47,276 nucleotides of DNA. Source: Solirubrobacterales bacterium (lineage in GTDB: Bacteria > Actinomycetota > Thermoleophilia > Solirubrobacterales > 70-9). The stretch lies in NCBI GenBank assembly GCA_020438445.1, contig JAGQUO010000007.1, forward strand, positions 1 through 47,276. The letters run 5' to 3'. A program made the translations under genes and the position numbers. A model generated the notes under the pieces. It saw nothing but the letters and a program-made list of their open reading frames with translations, did not search any database and was not told the origin of the DNA. Each line of letters opens with the position of its first letter. The stretch's first letter is position 1. This document shows positions 779-11,387 of this stretch, piece by piece.

Positions 779-1423
779 CTACCGCGCCGGGAGCTCGGCG
801 AGGAACGGGTTCGACGCGAGCTCCCGCTGCAAGGTCGTGATGCCCATGTGGCCCGGGTAGACGGTCGTCTCGGGCGGATGGGACTCGACCAGCAGCTGCA
901 GGCTCTTCGCCAGCGTCGGCCAGTCGCCGCCGGGGAGGTCGACGCGACCGACCGAGCCCTGGAAGAGCACGTCGCCGCTGAAGACCGCCGACTCGCCCGG
1001 GATCGAGTAGGTGACGTGCCCGATGCTGTGCCCGGGCGTGGAGATGACGTCGATGTCGAAGCCGGCGAGGGCGAGCTTCTCACCGCCCGACACCGTCTCG
1101 TCCGCGTCGTAACCCTCGAACGGGCCGATCCCCGGCATCGGCGGCGTCCACCTCATGATGTCGGCGAGCATCGGCGTCTCGAGCTCGGGGCAGTAGACGG
1201 CCGCGCCGGTCGCCTCCGCCACCGGGGTGACGGCGCCGACGTGGTCGACGTGGGTGTGGGTGAGCAGGATCGCCTCGACCTCGAGCCCGAGCTCGTCGAT
1301 CGCGGCGAGCAGCCGCGGTGCTTCGTCCCCGGGATCGATCACGAGCGCCTTCTCCGACCCGTCCCGCCGCACGAAGTACGTGTTCTCCGCGAACGGCCCG
1401 ACGGTGAAGCTGCGCACGTCCAT
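779..1423 (-). CDS. MBL-fold metallo-hydrolase (glyoxalase II-like)
   Basis: 214 residues. The zinc-binding signature THTHVDH is at about residues 55-61, followed by a later His in the STPGHSIGH stretch (about 130), an Asp in VFSGDVLF (about 150) and a final His in VYPGHMG (about 190). This is the full ligand set of the metallo-beta-lactamase fold, in the order seen in hydroxyacylglutathione hydrolase-like enzymes. Length is normal for the short, single-domain bacterial version. It starts 5 bases after the small membrane protein gene and is followed by the DMT permease, so it is part of a minus-strand operon. The true thioester substrate cannot be read from sequence. Confidence 0.88.
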   Translation of the reverse strand: MDVRSFTVGPFAENTYFVRRDGSEKALVIDPGDEAPRLLAAIDELGLEVEAILLTHTHVDHVGAVTPVAEATGAAVYCPELETPMLADIMRWTPPMPGIGPFEGYDADETVSGGEKLALAGFDIDVISTPGHSIGHVTYSIPGESAVFSGDVLFQGSVGRVDLPGGDWPTLAKSLQLLVESHPPETTVYPGHMGITTLQRELASNPFLAELPAR

Positions 1424-1428
1424 CGCGG

Positions 1429-1818
1429 TCAGGAGTCCTCGGCCTTCGCCTCGCGCTCCCGTTGCCGTCGCGCCATCCTCCGGTTGAAGAAGAAGGTCTC
1501 GGTGTAGAAGCCGAGCGGGATGTAGAAGAGCGCCGCGATGAGGGTGAGCATGATCGCTCCGGCAAGCGGCTGGCCGAAGAGCAGCGAGACCGGCAGCAGC
1601 AGGGCCGCGAAGATCGCGCCGCGGATCGCCGCCCCGCGCCAGGTCGGCGGCAGATCGCGACGGTCGACCGGAGCGTTCCGCTTGCCACCGCCCCTCCGCG
1701 AGCGCGCCTGCGCCATCGCCTCCTGGCGGTTGCGCGGACGGCGCGCGGGACGGCGCTGGATGCTCCCGGTCTGGGTGCCGCGATGCTTACGGCGGCGTGG
1801 CTTCGAGTTGCCCGGCAT
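1429..1818 (-). CDS. small basic membrane protein, unknown function
   Basis: 129 residues. The first 55 are very rich in Arg and Lys (starting MPGNSKPRRRK), then two hydrophobic segments follow (about 62-82 and 86-104), then a charged tail. The basic head suggests a cytoplasmic nucleic-acid or phospholipid contact, but this is inference. I do not recognise a named family beyond small conserved actinobacterial membrane proteins. It lies 40 bases after the formimidoyltransferase and 5 bases before the MBL-fold gene, which favours co-transcription. Confidence 0.65.
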   Translation of the reverse strand: MPGNSKPRRRKHRGTQTGSIQRRPARRPRNRQEAMAQARSRRGGGKRNAPVDRRDLPPTWRGAAIRGAIFAALLLPVSLLFGQPLAGAIMLTLIAALFYIPLGFYTETFFFNRRMARRQREREAKAEDS

Positions 1819-1857
1819 GAGGCCGCGATTGTAGTTAGGACCCGGCTCGGCAGGGCC

Positions 1858-2745
1858 TCAGGCGCCCGCGGTGGCCGCGAGCCGCGCCTCGATCGTCCGC
1901 TCGCCCGGATCGCCGCCGGCGAGCGGCAGCTCCTCCGGCCAGCCCGCCAGCGCGGCGGCGGGCACGAGGCCGACCAGCTCGGCCTCGACCGGACGGGTGC
2001 CGTGGCCCTCGGCGAGCCGGCGTACGAACGCGACGACCTCGGCGAGCGGCACCGCGACGGGATCGTGGACGTTGGTCGAGATCTGAACGCGTCCGGGACC
2101 GAGCTCGACGGCGATCGCCCGAACGCCGGGCAGCCCGCCGCCGGACTCGCGCAGGCCGGCGGCGATCGCGCGCCCGTCGTCGGCCCGCGTCCCCTCGCGA
2201 AGCCCGAGGTTGAAGGCGGCCAGCGGAGGCCGGGCCGTGACGAGGACGCCGCCCGCCGTCGGGTGCGCCCAGCCGGGGCCGTAGTCGGGCTCGAGCTCGT
2301 CGGCCTCCATCCGCCGCGCCAGCTCGGCGTGGCCCCCGCGGCGGAAGTAGGCGCGCTCGCGCCGCTCCGGCGCCGAGGCGAGCTCGCCGTAGAGGAAGAC
2401 GGGCAGGCCGATCGAGCCGAGCTGCTCGCCGACCGCCATCGCGAGATCGACCGCCCGCGGCCGCAGCGCCGGGTCGTGCCAGACGATCGGGCAGACGTCG
2501 AGCGATCCGATCCGCGGGTGGGCGCCGCGCTGGCGGCTGATGTCGATCCGCTCGAGTGCGAGCCAACCGAGCCGCTTCAGCGCGTCGCGCAGCGGCGCGT
2601 CGTCGCCCGCGATCGTGAACACGGTCCGGTTGTGGACGGCGTCGGAGTGCTCGTCGAGCAGCACCACAGGCGGGACGAGTGCCTCGCGGAGGTGGTCGAT
2701 CACTCCCTGCTCGGAACCGTCGGAGACGTTCGGGACGGCGAGCAG
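1858..2745 (-). CDS. glutamate formimidoyltransferase (FTCD N-terminal type)
   Basis: The enzyme moves the formimino group between formiminoglutamate and tetrahydrofolate in histidine breakdown. Two family signatures are visible: LLAVPNVSEG at the N-terminus and RGAHPRIGSLDVCPI, which holds the catalytic His. The later NLGLREGTRADDGRAIA part also fits. The conserved N-terminal block lies upstream of the first GTG (2703), so that GTG cannot be the true start. No ATG, GTG or TTG exists in frame between the upstream stop and that block. CTG at 2745 or at 2769 is the best guess; I use 2745, which gives about 295 residues. It follows the frameshifted peptidase closely. No other histidine-degradation gene is in the window. 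Confidence 0.8.
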   Translation of the reverse strand: MLAVPNVSDGSEQGVIDHLREALVPPVVLLDEHSDAVHNRTVFTIAGDDAPLRDALKRLGWLALERIDISRQRGAHPRIGSLDVCPIVWHDPALRPRAVDLAMAVGEQLGSIGLPVFLYGELASAPERRERAYFRRGGHAELARRMEADELEPDYGPGWAHPTAGGVLVTARPPLAAFNLGLREGTRADDGRAIAAGLRESGGGLPGVRAIAVELGPGRVQISTNVHDPVAVPLAEVVAFVRRLAEGHGTRPVEAELVGLVPAAALAGWPEELPLAGGDPGERTIEARLAATAGA

Positions 2746-2776
2746 GCGCTTGTCCGCCGGTCCCGCCAGGAGGGGC

Positions 2777-3743
2777 TCAGACGAGGAGCTCGCCGTCGCG
2801 GACGAGCTCGCTGCCGTCGACGGTCAGGGTCGGCTTCATCACGACGCAATCGAGGTGGACCGGGACCTGGATCCGGCCGCCGATCGCCTCCGAGGCGCCG
2901 AAGGCCACGTGGACCGTCCCGAGCAGCTTCTCGTCCTCGAGGACGTTGCCGGTCAGCTCCGCCTTCTCGTTGGTCCCGACGCCGAGCTCGGCGATCGTCC
3001 GCCCGTCCTCGCTGTCGGCGGTGAGGAGCTCGACCAGCGCCGCCCCCTCGGGCCCACTCGCCGCGGTCAGCCGGCCGCCCTCGACGGTGAGCGTCACCGG
3101 CGACTGCGGGACGCCGACCCCGGCGATCGTCCCGTCGACGACCAGCGTCCCCTCGCAGGCGCGATCGTCGGGCGAGATGAAGCCCTCGCCGCAGGGCAGG
3201 TTTCCGAAGGCGCCCCGGTTGCTCAGTTCGCCGGCGTCGACGATCCCGGTCCGCTCGCCGAGCCCCAGCCGCAGGTCGGTGCCGTGACGCACAGGTGATC
3301 CGCGCCTCGCGCCCGGCGTCGAGGACGGCGGCGATCGCGTGCCCGCGGCGGCGAAGCTCGCCCATGTCGGCGCTCATCACCCGCGCGAGCATCTGCTCGG
3401 TGACGCCGGGCAGGGTCGCGATCCGCGCCCCCGCCTCCGACGCGGCCTTGCGCGAGGCGGTGTGCGACAGCGACTGGACGGTCGGCGCGAGCACGACGTC
3501 GGCCTCCCTCATCGCCGCGGCGATCGTCCTCGGCGGCTCGGCGGCGTGGGTCGCGCGCTCGGCCATCAGCGCCAGCACGGCGTCCGCGCCGGCCCTGCCC
3601 GCCTCGCCGCGGAGGCGCTCGCCGAGCCCGAGCGTGGCCGGGTTGGCGATCACGAGCACGTCCTCCCCCTCCCGCACCCCCATGCAGTCGTTGACGACGG
3701 CCGCAACCGCCCGTCCGAGATCCTCGCGTGTGGGTTCGCTCAT
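2777..3743 (-). pseudogene. M29/NicX-type aminopeptidase with a one-base frameshift
   Basis: The N-terminal half (from ATG 3743, MSEPTREDLGRAVAAVVND) and the C-terminal half (ending at 2777) are in different frames. Together they make one protein of about 320 residues of the leucyl aminopeptidase T/thermophilic metalloprotease (M29-like) group, with the family stretch GAFGNLPCGEGFISP. The frames join cleanly if one extra C on the coding strand (plus-strand G near 3284) is removed, which restores ...ARITCASGTDLRLGLG.... The start overlaps the stop of the LtrA-like gene by 4 bases (ATGA). Either a real recent pseudogene or a sequencing error; both halves look otherwise intact, so I cannot decide. 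Confidence 0.78.
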
Positions 3744-4927
3744 CGCCGCTCGACACTAACGCGCCACCCGGCGCGGTCGAAGTTGAACTCCTCGGCGACG
3801 ACGAGCGCGATCAGGACCGCCGTGAGCAGGCCGGCGACGACGATCGCCTCGGCGTCCCGGGCGAGCAGTCCGACGGCGACGCAGGCGAGAGCCGCGATCG
3901 TCCGCTTCGGGCTCAGCGTGCCGGCGGTGCGAAGCCGGATCAGCGACAGCGTCATCAGATAGAGGGCCGGACCGGCGACGAGGACGAGGAGCTCGTCGCC
4001 GTGCAGCGGGTCGGTCGGGTGCGCGATCACGATCTCGTCGCCGACCGCGACGAGGATGACCCCCGCGATCACGAGCGCGTGCATGTAGGTGTAGATGTCG
4101 CGGGCGAGGAGGGTGCGCTGGTCGGACGCCTTCTCGAGCATCCCCTGCATCAGCTCCGCCGCGCGGTTGAAGTAGATCCACCAGAGCGAGGCGGTGGCGA
4201 CGAACGCCATCGCGAACGCGAGCACGACCGTCGTCGTCAGGTCGAGGTCGGAGGTCGTCGCCCCGGTGATCACGATCGACTCGCCGAGGGCGATGATCAC
4301 GAACAGCTGGAAGCGCTCGGCGAAGTGGTCGCTGGTGACGACCCACGCCTCGTGGCCGAGCTTCGGCAGCCACGGGACCCGGAAGACGAACACCGGCTCG
4401 AGCAGGTCGATCGACACCGCGATCAGCCACAGCACCGTGCGCGGCGTTCCCTCGTCGGCGAGCGCGCCGGCGATCCAGAAGATCCCCGAGAAGATGAACC
4501 AGATCACGATCTGCTCGGCCCGCAGGCGCTCGAGCGAGCCCTTGGTTCCGACGGCGAAAGCCATGAACGAGTGCCGGCCGACCTGGATCGCGACGTAGGC
4601 GCCCGCGAACAGCAGCGCCTGCTCGCCCCACGCCTCCGGGATCGCGACCGCCATCAGCAGGCTGCCGAGCATCACCGCGATCACCATCACCTTCACCGGC
4701 GCGGCCGAGGTGTCGAGCTCGTTCGTCGCCCAGGTCGTGAAGTTCCACGACCACCAGACCGCGATCAGGATCACCGCCGCCTGCCCCGCGCCCTCCCAGC
4801 TCAGATGCTCGAGCAGGTAATGAGAGACCTGCGTGATCGCGAAGACGAAGACGAGGTCGTAGAAGAGCTCGAGCGGCGAGGCGTGCGCGTGCCCGTCCGG
4901 TGCCCGTTCCCTGCTGAACCGCGCCAT
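3740..4927 (-). CDS. LtrA-like (low temperature requirement A) membrane protein
   Basis: 395 residues with many membrane helices. The N-terminal SPLELFYDLVFVFAITQVSH is the hallmark of the LtrA family, and WWSWNFTTWATNELDT also fits. The family was named from Listeria growth at low temperature; its biochemical role is not settled. It is the first gene of the minus-strand run down to position 1. It is divergent from the reductase at 4962, with only about 34 bases between the starts, so the two promoters must overlap or be leaderless. Confidence 0.85.
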   Translation of the reverse strand: MARFSRERAPDGHAHASPLELFYDLVFVFAITQVSHYLLEHLSWEGAGQAAVILIAVWWSWNFTTWATNELDTSAAPVKVMVIAVMLGSLLMAVAIPEAWGEQALLFAGAYVAIQVGRHSFMAFAVGTKGSLERLRAEQIVIWFIFSGIFWIAGALADEGTPRTVLWLIAVSIDLLEPVFVFRVPWLPKLGHEAWVVTSDHFAERFQLFVIIALGESIVITGATTSDLDLTTTVVLAFAMAFVATASLWWIYFNRAAELMQGMLEKASDQRTLLARDIYTYMHALVIAGVILVAVGDEIVIAHPTDPLHGDELLVLVAGPALYLMTLSLIRLRTAGTLSPKRTIAALACVAVGLLARDAEAIVVAGLLTAVLIALVVAEEFNFDRAGWRVSVERR

Positions 4928-4961
4928 CGGCAGGCAACGTACATCGCTAGCCTCGGCTCTG

Positions 4962-5534
4962 ATGGCAGCAGGGGCGAGGACGGTCTACTACGCGGCGATG
5001 AGCCTCGACGGCTACATCGCCGATCTCGACGAGAACCTCGAGTGGCTGACGAAGTTCGACGGCCCCGGCTTCGCCGGCGATGCGGGCGCCGAAGGGCCGA
5101 TGGAATCCTCATACGAGGCGTTCTACGACGGCGTCGGCGCGCTCGTGATGGGTTCGAAGACCTACGAGTTCATCGTGCCCTACGACTGGCAGTACGGCGA
5201 CAAGCCGACATGGGTCCTGACCTCGCGCGAGCTGCCGGTGATCGAGGGCGCGAGCGGGCTCCGGTTCGGCGACCGCTCGGTCGCCGAGATCCACGACGAG
5301 GTGATGGAGGCGGCGGGCGGCAAGGACCTCTGGGTGGTCGGCGGCGGCAACGTCGCCACGCAATACGTCGAGGCCGGGCTGCTCGACGTCGTCCAGGTGA
5401 CGATCGTCCCGGTCGTCCTCGGCGACGGCCTGCCGCTCTTCGCCGGGCCCGTCCCGCCGATGAAGCTGATCGACCTGACGCCCTTCGGCAACGGCATGGC
5501 CGAGCTGACCTACGAGTTGGCGAGGGCGGCGTGA
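4962..5534 (+). CDS. dihydrofolate reductase-family protein (RibD C-terminal fold)
   Basis: 190 residues. MSLDGYIAD near residue 13 is the substrate-loop signature of this family. VMGSKTYEF and LWVVGGGNVATQYVEAGLLD are the nucleotide-binding part. The protein ends with the usual VVLGDGLPLF and a beta-strand tail. Such stand-alone RibD-C/DHFR-like proteins are probably NADPH-dependent reductases, but few have known substrates. A second, clearly diverged member lies at 6838-7374. Monocistronic: divergent from the LtrA-like gene and convergent with the deacetylase. Confidence 0.85.
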   Translation: MAAGARTVYYAAMSLDGYIADLDENLEWLTKFDGPGFAGDAGAEGPMESSYEAFYDGVGALVMGSKTYEFIVPYDWQYGDKPTWVLTSRELPVIEGASGLRFGDRSVAEIHDEVMEAAGGKDLWVVGGGNVATQYVEAGLLDVVQVTIVPVVLGDGLPLFAGPVPPMKLIDLTPFGNGMAELTYELARAA

Positions 5535-5613
5535 GCGAGCGCCACGTCCACCTCGACGACCTGCCCGCGCTCTGGCCTGGCGGTCGGCCGCCCGGGTCGC
5601 CGGGTCGATCGCG

Positions 5614-6756
5614 CTAGCGGCCGCTGACGCCGATCGCCGTCGTGACGGCATCGATCGCATCACGCTCGAAGTCGCGCAGGCCCCGGGGGATGTCGAGCTC
5701 GAGCGGGTCCTCGTCGAAGGCCGGGTCGAGGCCGGCGAGCCGTTCGGCGATCGCGAGGTTGCAGAACGGGAGCTGCTCGAGGCTGTAGCCGCCCTCGAGC
5801 GCGACGACGAGGCGGCCGTCGCAGAGCTCGCTCGCCATCGCCAGCGCCCTTCCCGTCAGGCCGCGGAAGCCCTCGGTCGTCACGCTCATCCGTCCGAGCG
5901 GGTCCGAGGCGGCGGGGTCCTGACCGGCGGAGAGGAGGATCAGATCGGGGGCGAAGGCACGCAGCGCCGGCTCGACGACCCGCTCGAAGGCGTAGGCGTA
6001 GCCGGCGTCGCCGGTGCCCGCCGGCAGCGGCACGTTCACCGTCGAGCCCGCCCCCGCCCCCTCGCCACGGTCGATCGCCGCCCCGCGCCCCGGCGGGTAG
6101 AGGTCGTCCTGGTGCAGCGAGACGAACAGCACCGTCGGATCGGACCAGAAGATCGTCTCGGTGCCGTTGCCGTGGTGGACGTCCCAGTCGACGATCGCGA
6201 CCCGCTCGCAGCCGCGCCCCTGCGCGTGGCGAGCTGCGATTGCGGCGTTGTTGAACAGGCAGAAGCCCATCGGCTCAGCCGCCGTCGCATGGTGGCCGGG
6301 AGGTCGAACGATCGCGAAGCCGTTCGAGGCGGCGCCGTCGAGGACCGCGTCGGTCACCGCCAACAGGTTCCCGGCCGCCAGCAATGCCGGCTCCCACGAG
6401 TCGGGGCCGACCCGCGCCTCGGGCCCGACGGTCGCGAAGCGCCGCTCGGTGCATGCGGACTCGATCCGGTCGATCATCGCCGGGTCGTGGACCAGCTCGA
6501 GCTCCGCGCGAGTCGCGCGCCTGGACTCGAGCCGGACGAGCTCGCCGAGGACGCCGGCACGCTCGAGCACCTGCAGCGTCCGGCTCAGGCGCTCCGGCCG
6601 CTCGTAATGGGGGACATCGAGCCAGTCAGCCGCCGGACGGCGGACCAGCATCGAGCCGTTCTCGTGCCCGAGGCAACGCTCATCCCAGGCGAGGACGGAC
6701 TTCACCGCGAGAACCCGTCCGCCGACGACCCCTGATCCATACCCGGATCCTGACAT
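5614..6756 (-). CDS. AcuC/HDAC-family deacetylase
   Basis: Up to 380 residues. It carries the full arginase-deacetylase signature: YERPERL in the N-terminal part, RPPGHHA with the catalytic His pair, DWDVHHGNGT with zinc ligands, SLHQDDLYPP, and ALEGGYS near the end. Members remove acyl groups from protein lysines or from small amines (AcuC, acetylpolyamine amidohydrolase). The first about 17 residues are Gly-rich and poorly supported; a GTG at 6705 (MKSVLAWDERC) is an alternative start. No clear Shine-Dalgarno at either. It has no obvious acetyl-CoA synthetase neighbour that would mark it as AcuC proper. Confidence 0.88.
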   Translation of the reverse strand: MSGSGYGSGVVGGRVLAVKSVLAWDERCLGHENGSMLVRRPAADWLDVPHYERPERLSRTLQVLERAGVLGELVRLESRRATRAELELVHDPAMIDRIESACTERRFATVGPEARVGPDSWEPALLAAGNLLAVTDAVLDGAASNGFAIVRPPGHHATAAEPMGFCLFNNAAIAARHAQGRGCERVAIVDWDVHHGNGTETIFWSDPTVLFVSLHQDDLYPPGRGAAIDRGEGAGAGSTVNVPLPAGTGDAGYAYAFERVVEPALRAFAPDLILLSAGQDPAASDPLGRMSVTTEGFRGLTGRALAMASELCDGRLVVALEGGYSLEQLPFCNLAIAERLAGLDPAFDEDPLELDIPRGLRDFERDAIDAVTTAIGVSGR

Positions 6757-6837
6757 CCGGGTCCACCGTCAAAGCGGCGGGCGCGGCCGCGCCGAGGCAT
6801 GCGGCAATCATCGGCGTCCCCGACGGACCGCGCCGGT

Positions 6838-7374
6838 TCAGCTGCGCTGGACCGTGTAGCGGCAACTCGACCCGTCCTGGTCGATCCGCTCGAGCCCGAC
6901 GAGCGGCGAGGCCGGATCGCCGTACAGCCGCTTGCCGTCGCCGAGCAGCACCGGCGCGATGTGGACCACCATCTCGTCGATCACGCCGGCATCCATGCAC
7001 TGCTGCGCGACCCGTGCCCCGAAGATCTCGAGGTTCCCGGACCCGGCAGCCTCCCTGCCCTCGGCCACCGCGTGCTCCACCGGCCCACCGACGAACTCAA
7101 CGGCGGGGTGGTTCGGCTCGTCGTCGAGCCGGTGGGTGAGGACCAGCACCGGACCGGACCAGTTGCCACCGTAGATGCCGGCCGCGCCCCCGTAACGCCC
7201 CTCGGCCCCCTCGTACCAGCCGCGCCCGGCGAGGATCGCGCCGGTCGTCTCCCTCACCTCGTCCGCCAGCCGCGGTCCGTCGCTGCGGTGCTCGAACACC
7301 CAGTCCATCCAGTCGTCCGGGCCGGCGATGAAACCGTCCACCGACGTCGTCACGTGCCAGATCACCTTGCTCAT
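6838..7374 (-). CDS. dihydrofolate reductase-family protein (second RibD-C paralogue)
   Basis: About 178 residues from ATG 7374, chosen because AGGAGG lies 8 bases upstream; a longer frame to 7410 has no such site. TTSVDGFIAGPDD is the family loop, NLEIFGARVAQQCMDAGVIDE is the nucleotide-binding segment, and APVLLGDGKRLY is the conserved end. It shares the fold and motif order of the protein at 4962-5534 but little close identity. Likely a cytoplasmic NADPH-dependent reductase; substrate unknown. Confidence 0.87.
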   Translation of the reverse strand: MSKVIWHVTTSVDGFIAGPDDWMDWVFEHRSDGPRLADEVRETTGAILAGRGWYEGAEGRYGGAAGIYGGNWSGPVLVLTHRLDDEPNHPAVEFVGGPVEHAVAEGREAAGSGNLEIFGARVAQQCMDAGVIDEMVVHIAPVLLGDGKRLYGDPASPLVGLERIDQDGSSCRYTVQRS

Positions 7375-7502
7375 CTCGGACACCTCCTGCCCCTCTCGGA
7401 TCGTTCTCACGACAAGAGACCGGCACCCAGCCCCGGACTGATCGCTCGGCGGCGATCACCGGCCCCACGCAGCCGCCTCCGGCCTCTAAGATTCCCCGCC
7501 CC

Positions 7503-7576
7503 GCCGGAGTAGCTCAGTTGGTTAGAGCAGCGGAATCATAATCCGCGTGTCGGGAGTTCGAGTCTCTCCTCCGGCA
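7503..7576 (+). tRNA. tRNA-Met (anticodon CAT)
   Basis: A 74-base cloverleaf. The acceptor GCCGGAG (7503-7509) pairs with CTCCGGC (7569-7575), discriminator A at 7576. The anticodon stem GCGGA/TCCGC encloses a 7-base loop with CAT at 7537-7539. The T-arm is GGGAG-TTCGAGT-CTCTC. CCA is not encoded. The paired first base of the acceptor argues against the initiator. Elongator Met is most likely; a tRNA-Ile2 (lysidine-modified CAT) cannot be fully excluded. Its 3' half is partly copied at 8213-8237 and 8409-8431. Confidence 0.93.
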
Positions 7577-7643
7577 CTCCTCCTGGCGACGGCCTGAGCT
7601 TGTCCGCTTGCAGACCGACCGGCAGGTCTACGATGCTTGATCG

Positions 7644-8024
7644 ATGCCGCGGACGACCATCTCGACCTCGGGTGCACCTTCCTCACCGCTCTACGCGCAG
7701 GGAGTCGAGGCCGGCGGGCACATCTACGTCTCAGGGACGGTTGGGATCGATCCGTCGACGGGCGAGCTGGCCGGTTCGACGATCGAGGAGCAGACGAGGC
7801 AGGCGCTGGCGAACTGCGAAGCAATCCTGGAGGCCGGCGGTGCCACTCTCGACGACGTAGTCGAGGTCGGCGCGCTGCTCCACGACCCCGACGACTTCCC
7901 GGGTTTCAACCAGGAGTGGGCACGCTGGTTCCCGACCGATCCCCCTGCGCGGTACGCCGCGAAGCTCGGCGCCGTGATCCCCGGCGTTCTCGTGTCGATC
8001 CGTCTTGAGGCTTTCAAGGGCTGA
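7644..8024 (+). CDS. RidA-family enamine/imine deaminase-like protein
   Basis: 126 residues of normal length for RidA/YjgF. PLYAQGVEAGGHIYVSGTVG is the N-terminal core, the LDDVVEVGALLHD strand and PARYAAKLGAVIPGVLVSIR follow, and the last Arg-containing strand fits the catalytic Arg of deaminase-active members. RidA removes reactive enamines formed by pyridoxal-phosphate enzymes. There is no Shine-Dalgarno; a -10-like TACGAT (7629-7634) lies 9 bases before the ATG, so a leaderless transcript is plausible. It is the only intact gene between the tRNA and its partial 3' copies. Confidence 0.9.
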   Translation: MPRTTISTSGAPSSPLYAQGVEAGGHIYVSGTVGIDPSTGELAGSTIEEQTRQALANCEAILEAGGATLDDVVEVGALLHDPDDFPGFNQEWARWFPTDPPARYAAKLGAVIPGVLVSIRLEAFKG

Positions 8025-8151
8025 ACCCAGCAGAGGTCCGAGACCCGATCTGAAGACGCCGCAACGGCGGTCGTGGAGAAGCGCCAGTTCGACCTCGCGG
8101 TCGTCGACGCCCTCGCCATGATCTTCACGCGGCGCTAGCCCGGGAGCCCCG

Positions 8152-8182
8152 GGAACGGTCCCAGGACCAATGCCCGTTGACC
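8152..8182 (+). promoter_or_regulatory. orphan copy of palindromic DosR-like box
   Basis: The core GAACGGTCCCAGGACCAATG (8154 onward), followed by CCCGTTGA, matches the site at 26418 with one substitution and one missing T over about 28 bases. It keeps the GGTCC/GGACC inverted pair. No intact gene follows it, so it may be the promoter of a deleted gene. See the entry at 26417. Confidence 0.6.
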
Positions 8183-8212
8183 CGACTACGCAGGACGCCA
8201 CCGGCCCCCCGT

Positions 8213-8237
8213 GCGCGATCATGATCCGCGTGTCGGA
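8213..8237 (+). repeat. partial copy of tRNA-Met anticodon arm
   Basis: About 25 bases closely match tRNA positions 7530-7554, including 13 identical bases, ATCCGCGTGTCGG (8224-8236 against 7541-7553). The match stops where the T-arm should begin. The remaining tRNA 3' part reappears at 8409. Confidence 0.65.
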
Positions 8238-8285
8238 GGATGGATCGGCGGGCCACGTCTCCTCTTCGAGCTCGGATGCTGATTT

Positions 8286-8364
8286 CGACCACGACGTGGT
8301 CGTTTTCTGCATCCCAGGTCGCCTGGATGGCAAGAAGCGTCCAACTGCTCGTCACTTCTTGCCA
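8286..8364. repeat. cluster of three inverted repeats
   Basis: CGACCACG-A-CGTGGTCG (8286-8302, 8-bp arms), then CCAGG-TCG-CCTGG (about 8314-8326), then TGGCAAGAAG with CTTCTTGCCA (8328-8337 and 8355-8364, 10-bp arms, 17-base loop). All arms are perfect. The cluster lies inside the segment that separates the two tRNA-like pieces. It could be a small non-autonomous insertion, a structured RNA or an operator group. Confidence 0.6.
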
Positions 8365-8408
8365 TCGACCACCTGATCGGGACGTTCGCCGCCGCTACGG
8401 CCGCAGCC

Positions 8409-8431
8409 AGTTCGAGTCCCTCCTCCGGTAC
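8409..8431 (+). repeat. partial copy of tRNA-Met T-arm and acceptor end
   Basis: AGTTCGAGTCCCTCCTCCGG differs at one base from the tRNA 3' end (7554-7573). Similarity continues weakly past the tRNA end (TCCTCCTGG at 8437-8445 against 7579-7587). This is what an attachment-site copy left by a tRNA-targeting integrase looks like. No integrase gene is nearby. Confidence 0.65.
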
Positions 8432-8477
8432 CTCCCATCCTCCTGGAGAGGAGGAAGTTCGCGCTCAGGGCCCCTGA

Positions 8478-8954
8478 ACTGCGTTCTTCCCGACGATCTT
8501 CTTCGGGTCGTTTCTGATCGGGTTCGGGATCGGCAACGCTTTCATCCCGCTGCTGACGCTGGCGATGGCGGACGTCCCGGCCGCCGATGCCGGGCTCGGC
8601 TCGGGAATCACCAACGTCTCCCAGCAGATGAGCGGCGCCCTCGGGCTCGCGGTGCTGAGCACGCTCGCCGCCGACCACACCCAGGAACTGATCGCCGACG
8701 GCCGGGATGCGACGGACGCACTGATCAGCGGCTACCACCTCGCCTTCCTCACCGGGGCGGCGGTGATCGGGATCGGCGCCGTTCTCGCGCTGACCATGCT
8801 GCCGCGGGTCGCCGATGTCGAGGCGGAGCTCGGAGAGCTACCGCGGCGAGCGGAGCACGAAGGCGCGGGCACTGGCGGTCGATTGACGATCAGATCGAGC
8901 ACCGGGACGCCGAGCACCTTCTCTGTGCGGCCGACGACACCGGCCCGCCGCTAG
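8478..8954 (+). pseudogene. C-terminal remnant of a DHA2-type MFS exporter
   Basis: From about 8478 the frame encodes the last third of a 14-helix MFS drug exporter: FFPTIFFGSFLIGFGIGN, LLTLAMADVPAADAGLGSGI, SQQMSGALGLAVLSTLAA, and a final helix GAAVIGIGAVLALTML. An in-frame TGA at 8475 lies just before it and the first about 350 residues are missing. The same blocks in the same order occur in the complete exporter at 44688-46196, so it is a diverged paralogue. After about 8830 the reading is no longer transporter-like. Confidence 0.82.
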
Positions 8955-9601
8955 CGGATCTGGACGATCCTGACCTCGAGGCGATCGAGCTGCGAGTCGG
9001 GGGTGCAGTCCTCGTCCCCTCGGAGCTCAGCGGTGATCTCCAGCGGGGTCTTCGGGCTGATCAGGCCGAACGGGCCGTCGGCATCGCGGCCGAGGCTCGT
9101 CTCGAGCGTGGTCGAGTTGCCCTCGCTGTCCGGGGTGACGAAGACCCGGGTCGGATCTCCGTTCAGGAGCAGGAAGATCGCGGGTTGGCAGTACTCGGCC
9201 GGGTCGGTGCTGGCGATCGTGAACCGGCCCTCGGCCACGAGGGCCCCGACCGAACCGGACCTCGGCCTGATCGTCGTCTTCCCGCTGAGCGGCAACGGCG
9301 TGCTCGTGTCCGCGTTGATGCCGCCCTGGGCGCCGGACTTGGCCGAGCCGGTCACATCCACGTCCAGGCCCTCGAGCAGCTTCGCGGAGAGATCGCCGCT
9401 CTCGATCGCCCCGTTCTTGATGTTCGGTCCCTTCACAGCGTTCTTGTCCAGGTCGCTGTTCTGCACGGCACCGGGCGCGATGTTCCTGCTCTTGACGTCG
9501 TTCTTGCCGAGCTTGATCGCGGCGTAGACGGTTCCTCCGCCCAGCGCCAGGACGAGCGCAAGCGTCGCGACGACGTTCGCGTAGGTGAGTCTCGGCCGCA
9601 T
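8951..9601 (-). CDS. secreted/anchored protein with Thermoleophilia-type N-terminus
   Basis: 216 residues. The LTYANVVATLALVLALGGG signal or anchor segment is followed by short degenerate repeats of the type 'K-N-x-V-K-x-x-N-I-x-x-G-A-V/I' (about 30-75) and a beta-rich C-terminal part with a Cys pair (CQPAIF and DEDCTPD). This layout is very common in Solirubrobacterales and related Thermoleophilia genomes, where the function is unknown. The 3' end overlaps the end of the MFS remnant by 4 bases. Confidence 0.82.
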   Translation of the reverse strand: MRPRLTYANVVATLALVLALGGGTVYAAIKLGKNDVKSRNIAPGAVQNSDLDKNAVKGPNIKNGAIESGDLSAKLLEGLDVDVTGSAKSGAQGGINADTSTPLPLSGKTTIRPRSGSVGALVAEGRFTIASTDPAEYCQPAIFLLLNGDPTRVFVTPDSEGNSTTLETSLGRDADGPFGLISPKTPLEITAELRGDEDCTPDSQLDRLEVRIVQIR

Positions 9602-9806
9602 CTTCGTTCTCCCTCCGTAGCCCGCAGTCCACGGCCAGCCTACTCCCGAAACTCAGCGCCGCAAGCCGGCGCTGACCGGCTTCGGTAGATCAGCTCACCG
9701 CCGAGATCAGTGAACCCGTGGACGAGGAGCTCGCCGCGATGGAACCGCAGTCCCTTGAACCGGCACTGACAGCCGGTCCCGCCCGGTGACCTTCTCGCGC
9801 TCCGAC
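9602..9806. other. gene-poor spacer with an orphan reading frame
   Basis: On the minus strand a frame open to TAG at 9640 could encode a Cys-containing tail (CQCRFKGLRFHRGELLVHGF, later APACGAEFRE). I find no ATG, GTG or TTG in that frame between the upstream reductase stop and the Cys-rich part. It may be a remnant of a zinc-ribbon protein. Nothing else is seen here. Confidence 0.3.
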
Positions 9807-11387
9807 CTAGGCCGTTCCCGCCGCCCACTCGTGGACGTAGCGGACGGCGGCAGCCCCCTCGCCGACGGCGATCGCGCAGCGCTTGATCGAGCCTGCCCGG
9901 ACGTCGCCGGCGGCGAAGACGCCGGGAACGCTCGTCTCCTGGACGCCGGCGGCGCCGGCGTCGGGCCCGGTGAGGATGAAGCCCTTCTCGTCGCGGGCGA
10001 CGGTGTCGCCGAGCCAGTCGGTGCACGGCACCGCGCCGAGGAAGAGGAACAGGTAGCCGACCGGCATCCGCTCGCCGTCCTTCAGCGTGACGGCTTCGAG
10101 CTGGCCGTCGCTGCCATGGAGCTCGGCGATCTCGGACCGATCGCGGACGGCGACGCGGTGCTTGACGAGGTCGTCGATCAAGTACTGCGACATCGTCTCG
10201 CTCAGGTCCTTGCGGCGATGGAGGAGGGTGACGAGCGCGCCACCTTTGGCGAGCCAGATCGCCGCCTGGGCGGCTGAATTGCCGCCGCCGACGACGGCGA
10301 CCCGCTGGGCGCCGCACTTCTCTCCCTCGAGTGGGCCGGCAGCGTAGAAGACGCTGATCCCCTCGTAGTCGCCGAGGCCGGCGACGGGCAGCCGCCGGTA
10401 ATCGGCGCCGGTGGCGATGACGACGCTCCCGGCGACGACCTCACGCTCGTCGTCGAGGCGGACGACGTGGCGATCGGTGCCGGGCTCGAGCGCGGTCGCG
10501 CGATAGGGCGTCGCGGTGCGGGCCTTGAACTTGCGGGCCTGCGTGATCGCTTTCGTCGTCAGCTCGTTGCCGCTGATTCCGGCGGGAAAGCCGAGGTAGT
10601 TCTCGATCCGGCGCGAGGTGCCGGCCTGACCGCCCAGCTGCGAGCCCTCGACGACGAGCGTGTCGAGCCCCTCGGAGGCACCGTAGACGGCGGCACCGAG
10701 GCCTGCAGGGCCCCCGCCGATCACGAGCAGGTCGACCTCCTCCCGCGGTTTCAGCACCGCTCCGACGTTGATCGCCCGGGCGAGCTCGCCGTTGCTCGGG
10801 CGCTTGAGCTCGGCGCCGCCGGGGAGCCGGACGAGCGGCAGCTCGGACTCGTCCAGGCCGTCGACGAGGACCGCGGCCTCCGGATCGTCCGCCGCCGCCG
10901 GATCGCGCCATTGGAACGGCAGGCGGTTGCGGCCGGCGAAGTCGACTATCCGGCGGGTGTCGTCGGACGAGCGCGGTCCGATCACCTCGAGGCCGATGCC
11001 GTCGATCCGCTGGAGCGCCTCGCGACGCTCGATGAAGGTCGTCAGCAGGACGTCGGAGAGCGGGCCGTCCTCGGCCACGAGCTCGCGGAGGGCCGGGCGC
11101 TCGACGGCGATGTAGCGCATCGGCTCGGTCGCGACCGCGGTCAGGTAGACGGTCTGCCCCGAGAGCAGGTTCATCTCCCCGAGGAAGCCGGACCTGCCGT
11201 GACGGACGATCTCGTTGCCGGCGGGGTCCTGGATCGCCGCCTCGCCCTCGAGGATCGCGATCAGCGGATACGTCTCGTCGCCGACCCGGTACAGCACCTC
11301 GCCGACCTCCGCCGTCAGCTCGACCCCAACGCCGGCGAGCGTCTCGAGCTGAGCCGGTGAGAGAACCGGGCTTGCGGGCGCTTCCAC
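9807..11387 (-). CDS. cyclic nucleotide-binding-like domain fused to thioredoxin reductase-like flavoprotein
   Basis: About 526 residues from GTG 11387; the frame is open to a further start at 11468, but that part is unconvincing. Residues 10-115 form a CRP/cNMP-type domain (LIAILEGEAAIQDPAG, GFLGEMNLLSGQTVYLTA). The rest is a two-dinucleotide-domain reductase: FAD motif VIGGGPAGLGAAVYGASEGL, then GGQAGTSRRIENYLGFP, NADPH motif VAVVGGGNSAAQAAIWL, and the C-terminal GVFAAGDVR. The CxxC redox pair of thioredoxin reductase is absent where expected (VFYAAGP), so it is not a classical TrxR. The phosphate-binding cassette also lacks the usual Arg (GQTVYLTA). Likely a redox enzyme under ligand control, but partner and ligand are unknown. 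Confidence 0.85.
   Translation of the reverse strand: MEAPASPVLSPAQLETLAGVGVELTAEVGEVLYRVGDETYPLIAILEGEAAIQDPAGNEIVRHGRSGFLGEMNLLSGQTVYLTAVATEPMRYIAVERPALRELVAEDGPLSDVLLTTFIERREALQRIDGIGLEVIGPRSSDDTRRIVDFAGRNRLPFQWRDPAAADDPEAAVLVDGLDESELPLVRLPGGAELKRPSNGELARAINVGAVLKPREEVDLLVIGGGPAGLGAAVYGASEGLDTLVVEGSQLGGQAGTSRRIENYLGFPAGISGNELTTKAITQARKFKARTATPYRATALEPGTDRHVVRLDDEREVVAGSVVIATGADYRRLPVAGLGDYEGISVFYAAGPLEGEKCGAQRVAVVGGGNSAAQAAIWLAKGGALVTLLHRRKDLSETMSQYLIDDLVKHRVAVRDRSEIAELHGSDGQLEAVTLKDGERMPVGYLFLFLGAVPCTDWLGDTVARDEKGFILTGPDAGAAGVQETSVPGVFAAGDVRAGSIKRCAIAVGEGAAAVRYVHEWAAGTA

Follow-up and report, generated by a model that had tools for sequence, protein, structure and literature searches.

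According to Islander, an island in a tRNA gene is marked by a regenerated target and a displaced fragment of that target (PMC4383910). Tyrosine integrases acting in tRNA genes leave behind a restored gene and a displaced fragment, which is a 3′ fragment in 3760 of the 3919 Islander islands (PMC4383910). Moreover, Islander distinguishes anticodon and T-stem subsites and recognises tandem arrays (PMC4383910). In this study, we describe a stretch of 47,276 nucleotides from a Solirubrobacterales bacterium (contig JAGQUO010000007.1; hereafter the window), in which a 3′ half of tRNA-Met lies downstream of the intact gene and is split by one copy of a dispersed repeat, R1. We think it quite probable that an integrase made this copy as an attR, that the integrated element was lost, and that R1 inserted afterwards. 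In coordinates, G000 denotes the genome of the window, G001 and G002 denote its two congeners, and C denotes a contig.

Results

The intact tRNA gene and the features downstream of it are listed in Table 1. The left and right pieces of the copy are 88% and 91% identical to their source segments, and they are the top two ungapped tRNA matches in the 47-kb window once the tRNA itself is masked (scores of 17 and 16, with the next at 12); in 30 trials with random 20-kb Markov sequences, the best tRNA match scored 11.2 on average and never above 15. The two pieces keep the order and strand of the tRNA and abut in its coordinates, with base 7554 absent or altered between them. When the insert was excised in silico, the flanks aligned to the end of the tRNA without a break apart from a single absent base, and a 9-base match to the trailer came after a 6-base offset. 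The whole copy has diverged (42 of 47 bases identical), and a scan of the window found the 3′ half alone duplicated, with no copy of the 5′ half downstream. A sequence-only reading of the window had proposed that a tRNA-Met 3′ half was copied downstream and then split, and this proposal holds with its edges adjusted. The left piece, given as 8213-8237 and copying 7530-7554, is a copy that ends at 8236 and 7553; the right piece is a tRNA copy whose source is 7555-7577 rather than 7554-7576; the pieces rebuild one 3′ half cut once, as claimed, except that base 7554 is missing or changed; and the insert is single, with a length of 172 bases (8237-8408) rather than 171.

Table 1. Features of the tRNA-Met locus and of the R1 copy in the window.
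Feature	Position	Strand	Evidence and remarks
tRNA-Met (CAT), intact; attL side of presumed integration	7503..7577	+	ARAGORN; Rfam tRNA 67.1 bits; orthologous and syntenic in G001
RidA/L-PSP family gene, presumed cargo of lost element	7644..8024	+	PF01042 E=2.7e-26
Left piece of displaced tRNA 3′ half	8213..8236	+	copies 7530-7553 (anticodon arm and variable region), 21/24
R1 dispersed repeat, core-only copy inside the tRNA 3′-half copy	8237..8408	+	93% to G000:C88:4957-5130; about 27 loci
R1 hairpin H1 (GGATGC-TGATTT-CGACCAC/GTGGTCG-TTTTCT-GCATCC)	8274..8314	+	inner stem and T-run score intrinsic-terminator-like
R1 hairpin H2 (GATGGCAAGAAG/CTTCTTGCCATC)	8326..8366	+	inverted repeat
Right piece of displaced tRNA 3′ half	8409..8431	+	copies 7555-7577 (T arm and acceptor 3′ strand), 21/23
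tRNA trailer copy	8438..8449	+	copies 7578-7589, 11/12, 6-base offset
DHA2/EmrB-type MFS transporter, truncated C-terminal piece, pseudogene	8478..8954	+	TIGR00711, PF07690

Between the tRNA and its copy lies foreign DNA, namely the RidA gene. Neither congener has a homologue of it at 1e-20, and a single homologue (38%) was found among 49 family genomes; this rarity fits the cargo of a lost element. After RidA, positions 8073-8138 form a short coding-like tail (VVEKRQFDLAVVDALAMIFTRR, ending in a stop), 33 bases of which match G001:C1:478933 and G002:C51:24281 at 91% identity, and this tail is perhaps a stray gene end. The MFS pseudogene adjoins the far side of the scar. It matches positions 350-416 of the 485 of TIGR00711 (E=4.5e-10) and positions 296-346 of the 347 of PF07690, and about 350 N-terminal residues are gone; a truncated transporter past the tRNA copy indicates that the region was rearranged further.

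In the congener G001, the tRNA-Met at C1:1047117-1047190 is the orthologue, with upstream synteny over window positions 785-7576. An element of 13,053 bp lies between this tRNA and a 24-bp attR (G001:C1:1034040-1047116). The attR, GGAGGTCGAGTCTCTCCTCCGGCA, is a 23/24 copy of tRNA positions 7553-7576, and the right piece in the window is the segment that this attR also uses. The G001 element contains a frame-broken integrase fragment (PF00589, 1.7e-12) and an integrase C-terminus that abuts the attR (PF00589, 3e-4, under the curated cut-off); its integrase genes appear broken. It also encodes an ISL3 transposase, a CAP12/Pycsar TIR effector and an Eco57I-type methylase, and the last two are likely phage-defence cargo. 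Because an element with integrase fragments and an attR occupies the orthologous gene, this tRNA-Met is targeted by integrating elements in the genus. The window copy starts at the anticodon stem and is diverged, whereas the G001 attR starts at the T arm; the window copy therefore likely goes back to another integration event or to an earlier one.

The insert is one of about 27 dispersed, palindromic, intergenic R1 repeats in its own genome. With positions 8180-8480 as the query, about 30 other matches were found in the 2.69-Mb assembly; the count of about 27 loci was obtained with a longer copy as the query and a covariance model from 13 copies. The nearest copy, on another contig (Table 1), is aligned to window positions 8235-8408, and the identity between the two ends on both sides where the tRNA pieces start. 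Because of this, the ends of R1 and the break in the tRNA, which were defined independently, coincide. Both blastn and the covariance model found R1 absent from G001 and G002, and blastn did not recover it from 47 other family genomes, barring two matches in G019 and G036 that we rejected as too short (about 35 bases). A large collection of named genomes gave one match only, to the H1 pattern in a Rhodospirillaceae MAG, which was set aside as chance because the similarity did not extend past 24 bases; viral contigs gave none. R1 is so far confined to one species in the genomes searched, and the literature searched held no published description of an R1-like repeat in such bacteria.

R1 is 172 to about 290 bp long. 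In 12 full copies, the core is flanked by long inverted arms (GGCTGGGGAGGGG...CCCTTCCCCAGCC and further out); the window copy and about half of the others are without arms, and some copies consist of the inner part or of single hairpins only. The window copy stops where the arms of a full copy would begin; one base of the tRNA is absent, and no duplicated target is seen. The possibility that the window flanks are worn R1 arms was rejected because they bear no likeness to the arms above that of shuffled flanks (best p 0.066) and match the tRNA. We also rejected the insertion of the core into a pre-existing GGCTGGGGA...CCCCAGCC repeat, since the uninterrupted palindrome was sought in the genome itself and was not found. 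Moreover, R1 is not a known RNA by Rfam: only the tRNA passes the gathering score.

One clean empty site of R1 was found in the congeners (G002:C128), and their other orthologous loci carry unrelated intergenic DNA, as at locus L069, where their sequence differs and no clean empty site is seen. At locus L066, two convergent genes of G002 abut at a shared CTAG, and G000 has a full R1 copy with arms between TAG and CTAG. At the same locus, G001 carries 147 unrelated bases with inverted-repeat ends (GAGGTCCCC...GGGGACCTC; L114, G001:C2:539737-539883), which suggests a quick turnover of hairpin elements at one site. A target-site duplication (CTAG/CTA) was seen at one locus only, and YTAR/CTAG duplication, suggestive at that single locus, was rejected as a general rule. 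Because R1 is a dispersed repeat, is absent in both congeners and has a clean empty site at another locus, it appears to have entered a tRNA 3′-half copy that was contiguous at the time. We infer that R1 moved by transposition and not by another route.

A second repeat family of the genus, R2, is about 100 bp long, dispersed and intergenic; one copy lies at G000:C88 5196-5304, and many are found in G001 and G002. When 11 copies were folded together, double compensatory changes were seen in 10 of the 24 predicted pairs, mostly in the outer stem. The outer arms differ among copies yet pair, and several copies start right at a stop codon. R2 resembles a structured RNA or hairpin element, as yet undescribed, of this genus.

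Discussion

The tRNA 3′-half copy is most likely a degenerate attR. This reading follows from the copying of the 3′ part of the tDNA without its 5′ part, from the position of the copy downstream of the intact gene in the same orientation, from the foreign RidA gene enclosed by the two and from the G001 element at the orthologous tRNA. The ORFs examined between 7577 and 8431 include no integrase and no att-type partner gene, and the lack of an integrase-like ORF is the reason that we file the locus as a scar and not as an island; an integrase inside the element, which a live tRNA-gene island needs but a scar does not, is missing from the window and is present but broken in the G001 element. The sequence-only reading had likewise taken the copy for an old attR with RidA inside the original element and with a second event interrupting it later. 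The first of these ideas is supported by the congener's element with its integrase fragments and its tRNA-end attR, the second by the position of RidA between the tRNA and the copy and by its lack of a close homologue in the genus, and the third by the insert being a copy of a repeat with other copies elsewhere in the genome. That reading had also suggested that relatives may carry a full element with an integrase, and G001 has the 13-kb element with its integrase fragments at the same tRNA. The empty site that it further predicted, with the tRNA joined directly to the sequence after 8450, was not found in G001 or G002 because neither congener keeps the downstream sequence of the window beside the tRNA (positions 8432-9810 have no counterpart in the G001 region compared, and the G002 contig stops before the tRNA).

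Under the attR reading, an integrative element would have entered the 3′ half of tRNA-Met by means of a tyrosine integrase, which would thus be the maker of the copy. Integration would have restored the tRNA and pushed the host's own 3′ half to the far end of the element as attR. The element would then have shrunk to about 0.65 kb of RidA and debris, so that no working island is left for the attR to delimit. The 172-base core of R1 would have come after the integration, inserting between the variable region and the T stem of the displaced half and splitting it.

It is possible, although we are doubtful, that R1 is not mobile but is a structured intergenic element, such as a terminator or an mRNA 3′-end element, that spread by recombination or copying and was kept for its function; its arrival in the scar would then be incidental, and the attR reading would be compatible with it. 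The genomic setting of R1 agrees with such a role. None of the 27 copies lies within a predicted gene, and 12 of the 25 copies with two neighbours lie between convergent genes, compared with a small control in which 3 of 27 intergenic spaces are of this kind (p=0.005), the genes being codon-usage predictions of this analysis. Furthermore, the inner stem of H1 with its TTTTCT run looks like an intrinsic terminator, and the R1 RNA is predicted to fold more stably than shuffled sequences (z of -4.0 for the window copy and -5.1 for a full copy). However, covariation in the consensus is small, with a double change in 3 of 53 pairs, and both the empty site at G002:C128 and the broken tRNA copy look like the results of insertion. 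Selection acting on a random inserter would also leave the copies intergenic.

A further reading, which we consider improbable, is that the mobile unit of R1 is the 172-base core, that it targets palindromic or hairpin-forming sites, and that the target supplies the outer arms. This idea arises from an 11-bp stem (p=0.075 against shuffles) that the tRNA pieces form in the fold (8230-8240 with 8421-8431), closing the window insert, and from the outer arms of R2, which differ between copies yet pair. At that p value, which is not significant by itself, and with armless copies mostly without a closing stem, we rejected the pairing of the tRNA flanks as proof of hairpin targeting. If true, R1 would represent a new class of hairpin-targeting miniature element.

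We give a low probability to two nested integrations at different subsites of tRNA-Met, in which 8213-8236 would be an anticodon-class attR, 8409-8431 a T-stem-class attR, and the stretch between them the residue of an element. The G001 element does use the T-stem subsite of this tRNA, and both subsites and tandem arrays are recognised by Islander (PMC4383910). However, the two pieces are neighbours on the tRNA save for one lost base, what separates them in the window is a single copy of a dispersed repeat with nothing added, and an anticodon-class attR should itself retain the T arm. Still less probable is that the tRNA gene was duplicated, in tandem or as part of a segment, and that the second copy decayed; this would account for the roughly 11 similar trailer bases after both copies but not for the absent 5′ half, the foreign gene between the copies and the use of the same tRNA as an integration target in G001.

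On the preferred reading of an attR later entered by R1, the locus would be a two-step record, in which a tRNA integration site was reduced to a scar and then struck by a repeat. With the tRNA copy as a ruler, the point of insertion can be placed within one or two bases, and the limits of the R1 core follow from it; the other copies do not reveal these limits. The locus also marks tRNA-Met as a gene at which integration has recurred in the genus.

Compared with the attR of an Islander island (PMC4383910), the window has the same arrangement of a 3′-half copy in the same orientation downstream of an intact tRNA, with a foreign gene between the ends and the same tRNA occupied by an element in a congener. 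It differs in lacking an integrase, in having ends only about 0.65 kb apart and in the divergence and interruption of the fragment.

R1 itself fits neither a REPIN nor a MITE cleanly. Like the REP and REPIN sequences associated with RAYT (Y1) transposases (PMC3116915, PMC2817692), R1 is short, palindromic, extragenic, dispersed and species-specific. In contrast to them, its two hairpins H1 and H2 are unlike in sequence and are not inverted copies of one REP, R1 is longer, and its copies are far fewer. Moreover, no Y1 transposase gene (Y1_Tnp, PF01797) was matched in the 95%-complete assembly, in which the controls were positive, and we rejected R1 as a REPIN on the grounds of the missing transposase and the unlike hairpins. 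With bacterial MITEs, R1 shares a non-coding and dispersed nature and, in most full copies, long inverted arms. It departs from them in the armless state of the window copy and about half of the others, in having no consistent target duplication and in its lack of a parent transposon with matching ends, as neither an arms-only nor an arm-flanked longer copy was found in its own genome (a draft assembly).

The insertion sequences that target REP-type palindromes (PMC1525189) are likewise mobile DNA in palindromic intergenic sequence; in the window, by contrast, the tRNA-derived scar is the target and the palindromic repeat is the insert. The history of the scar is a documented kind of story, and R1 is the new repeat family in it.
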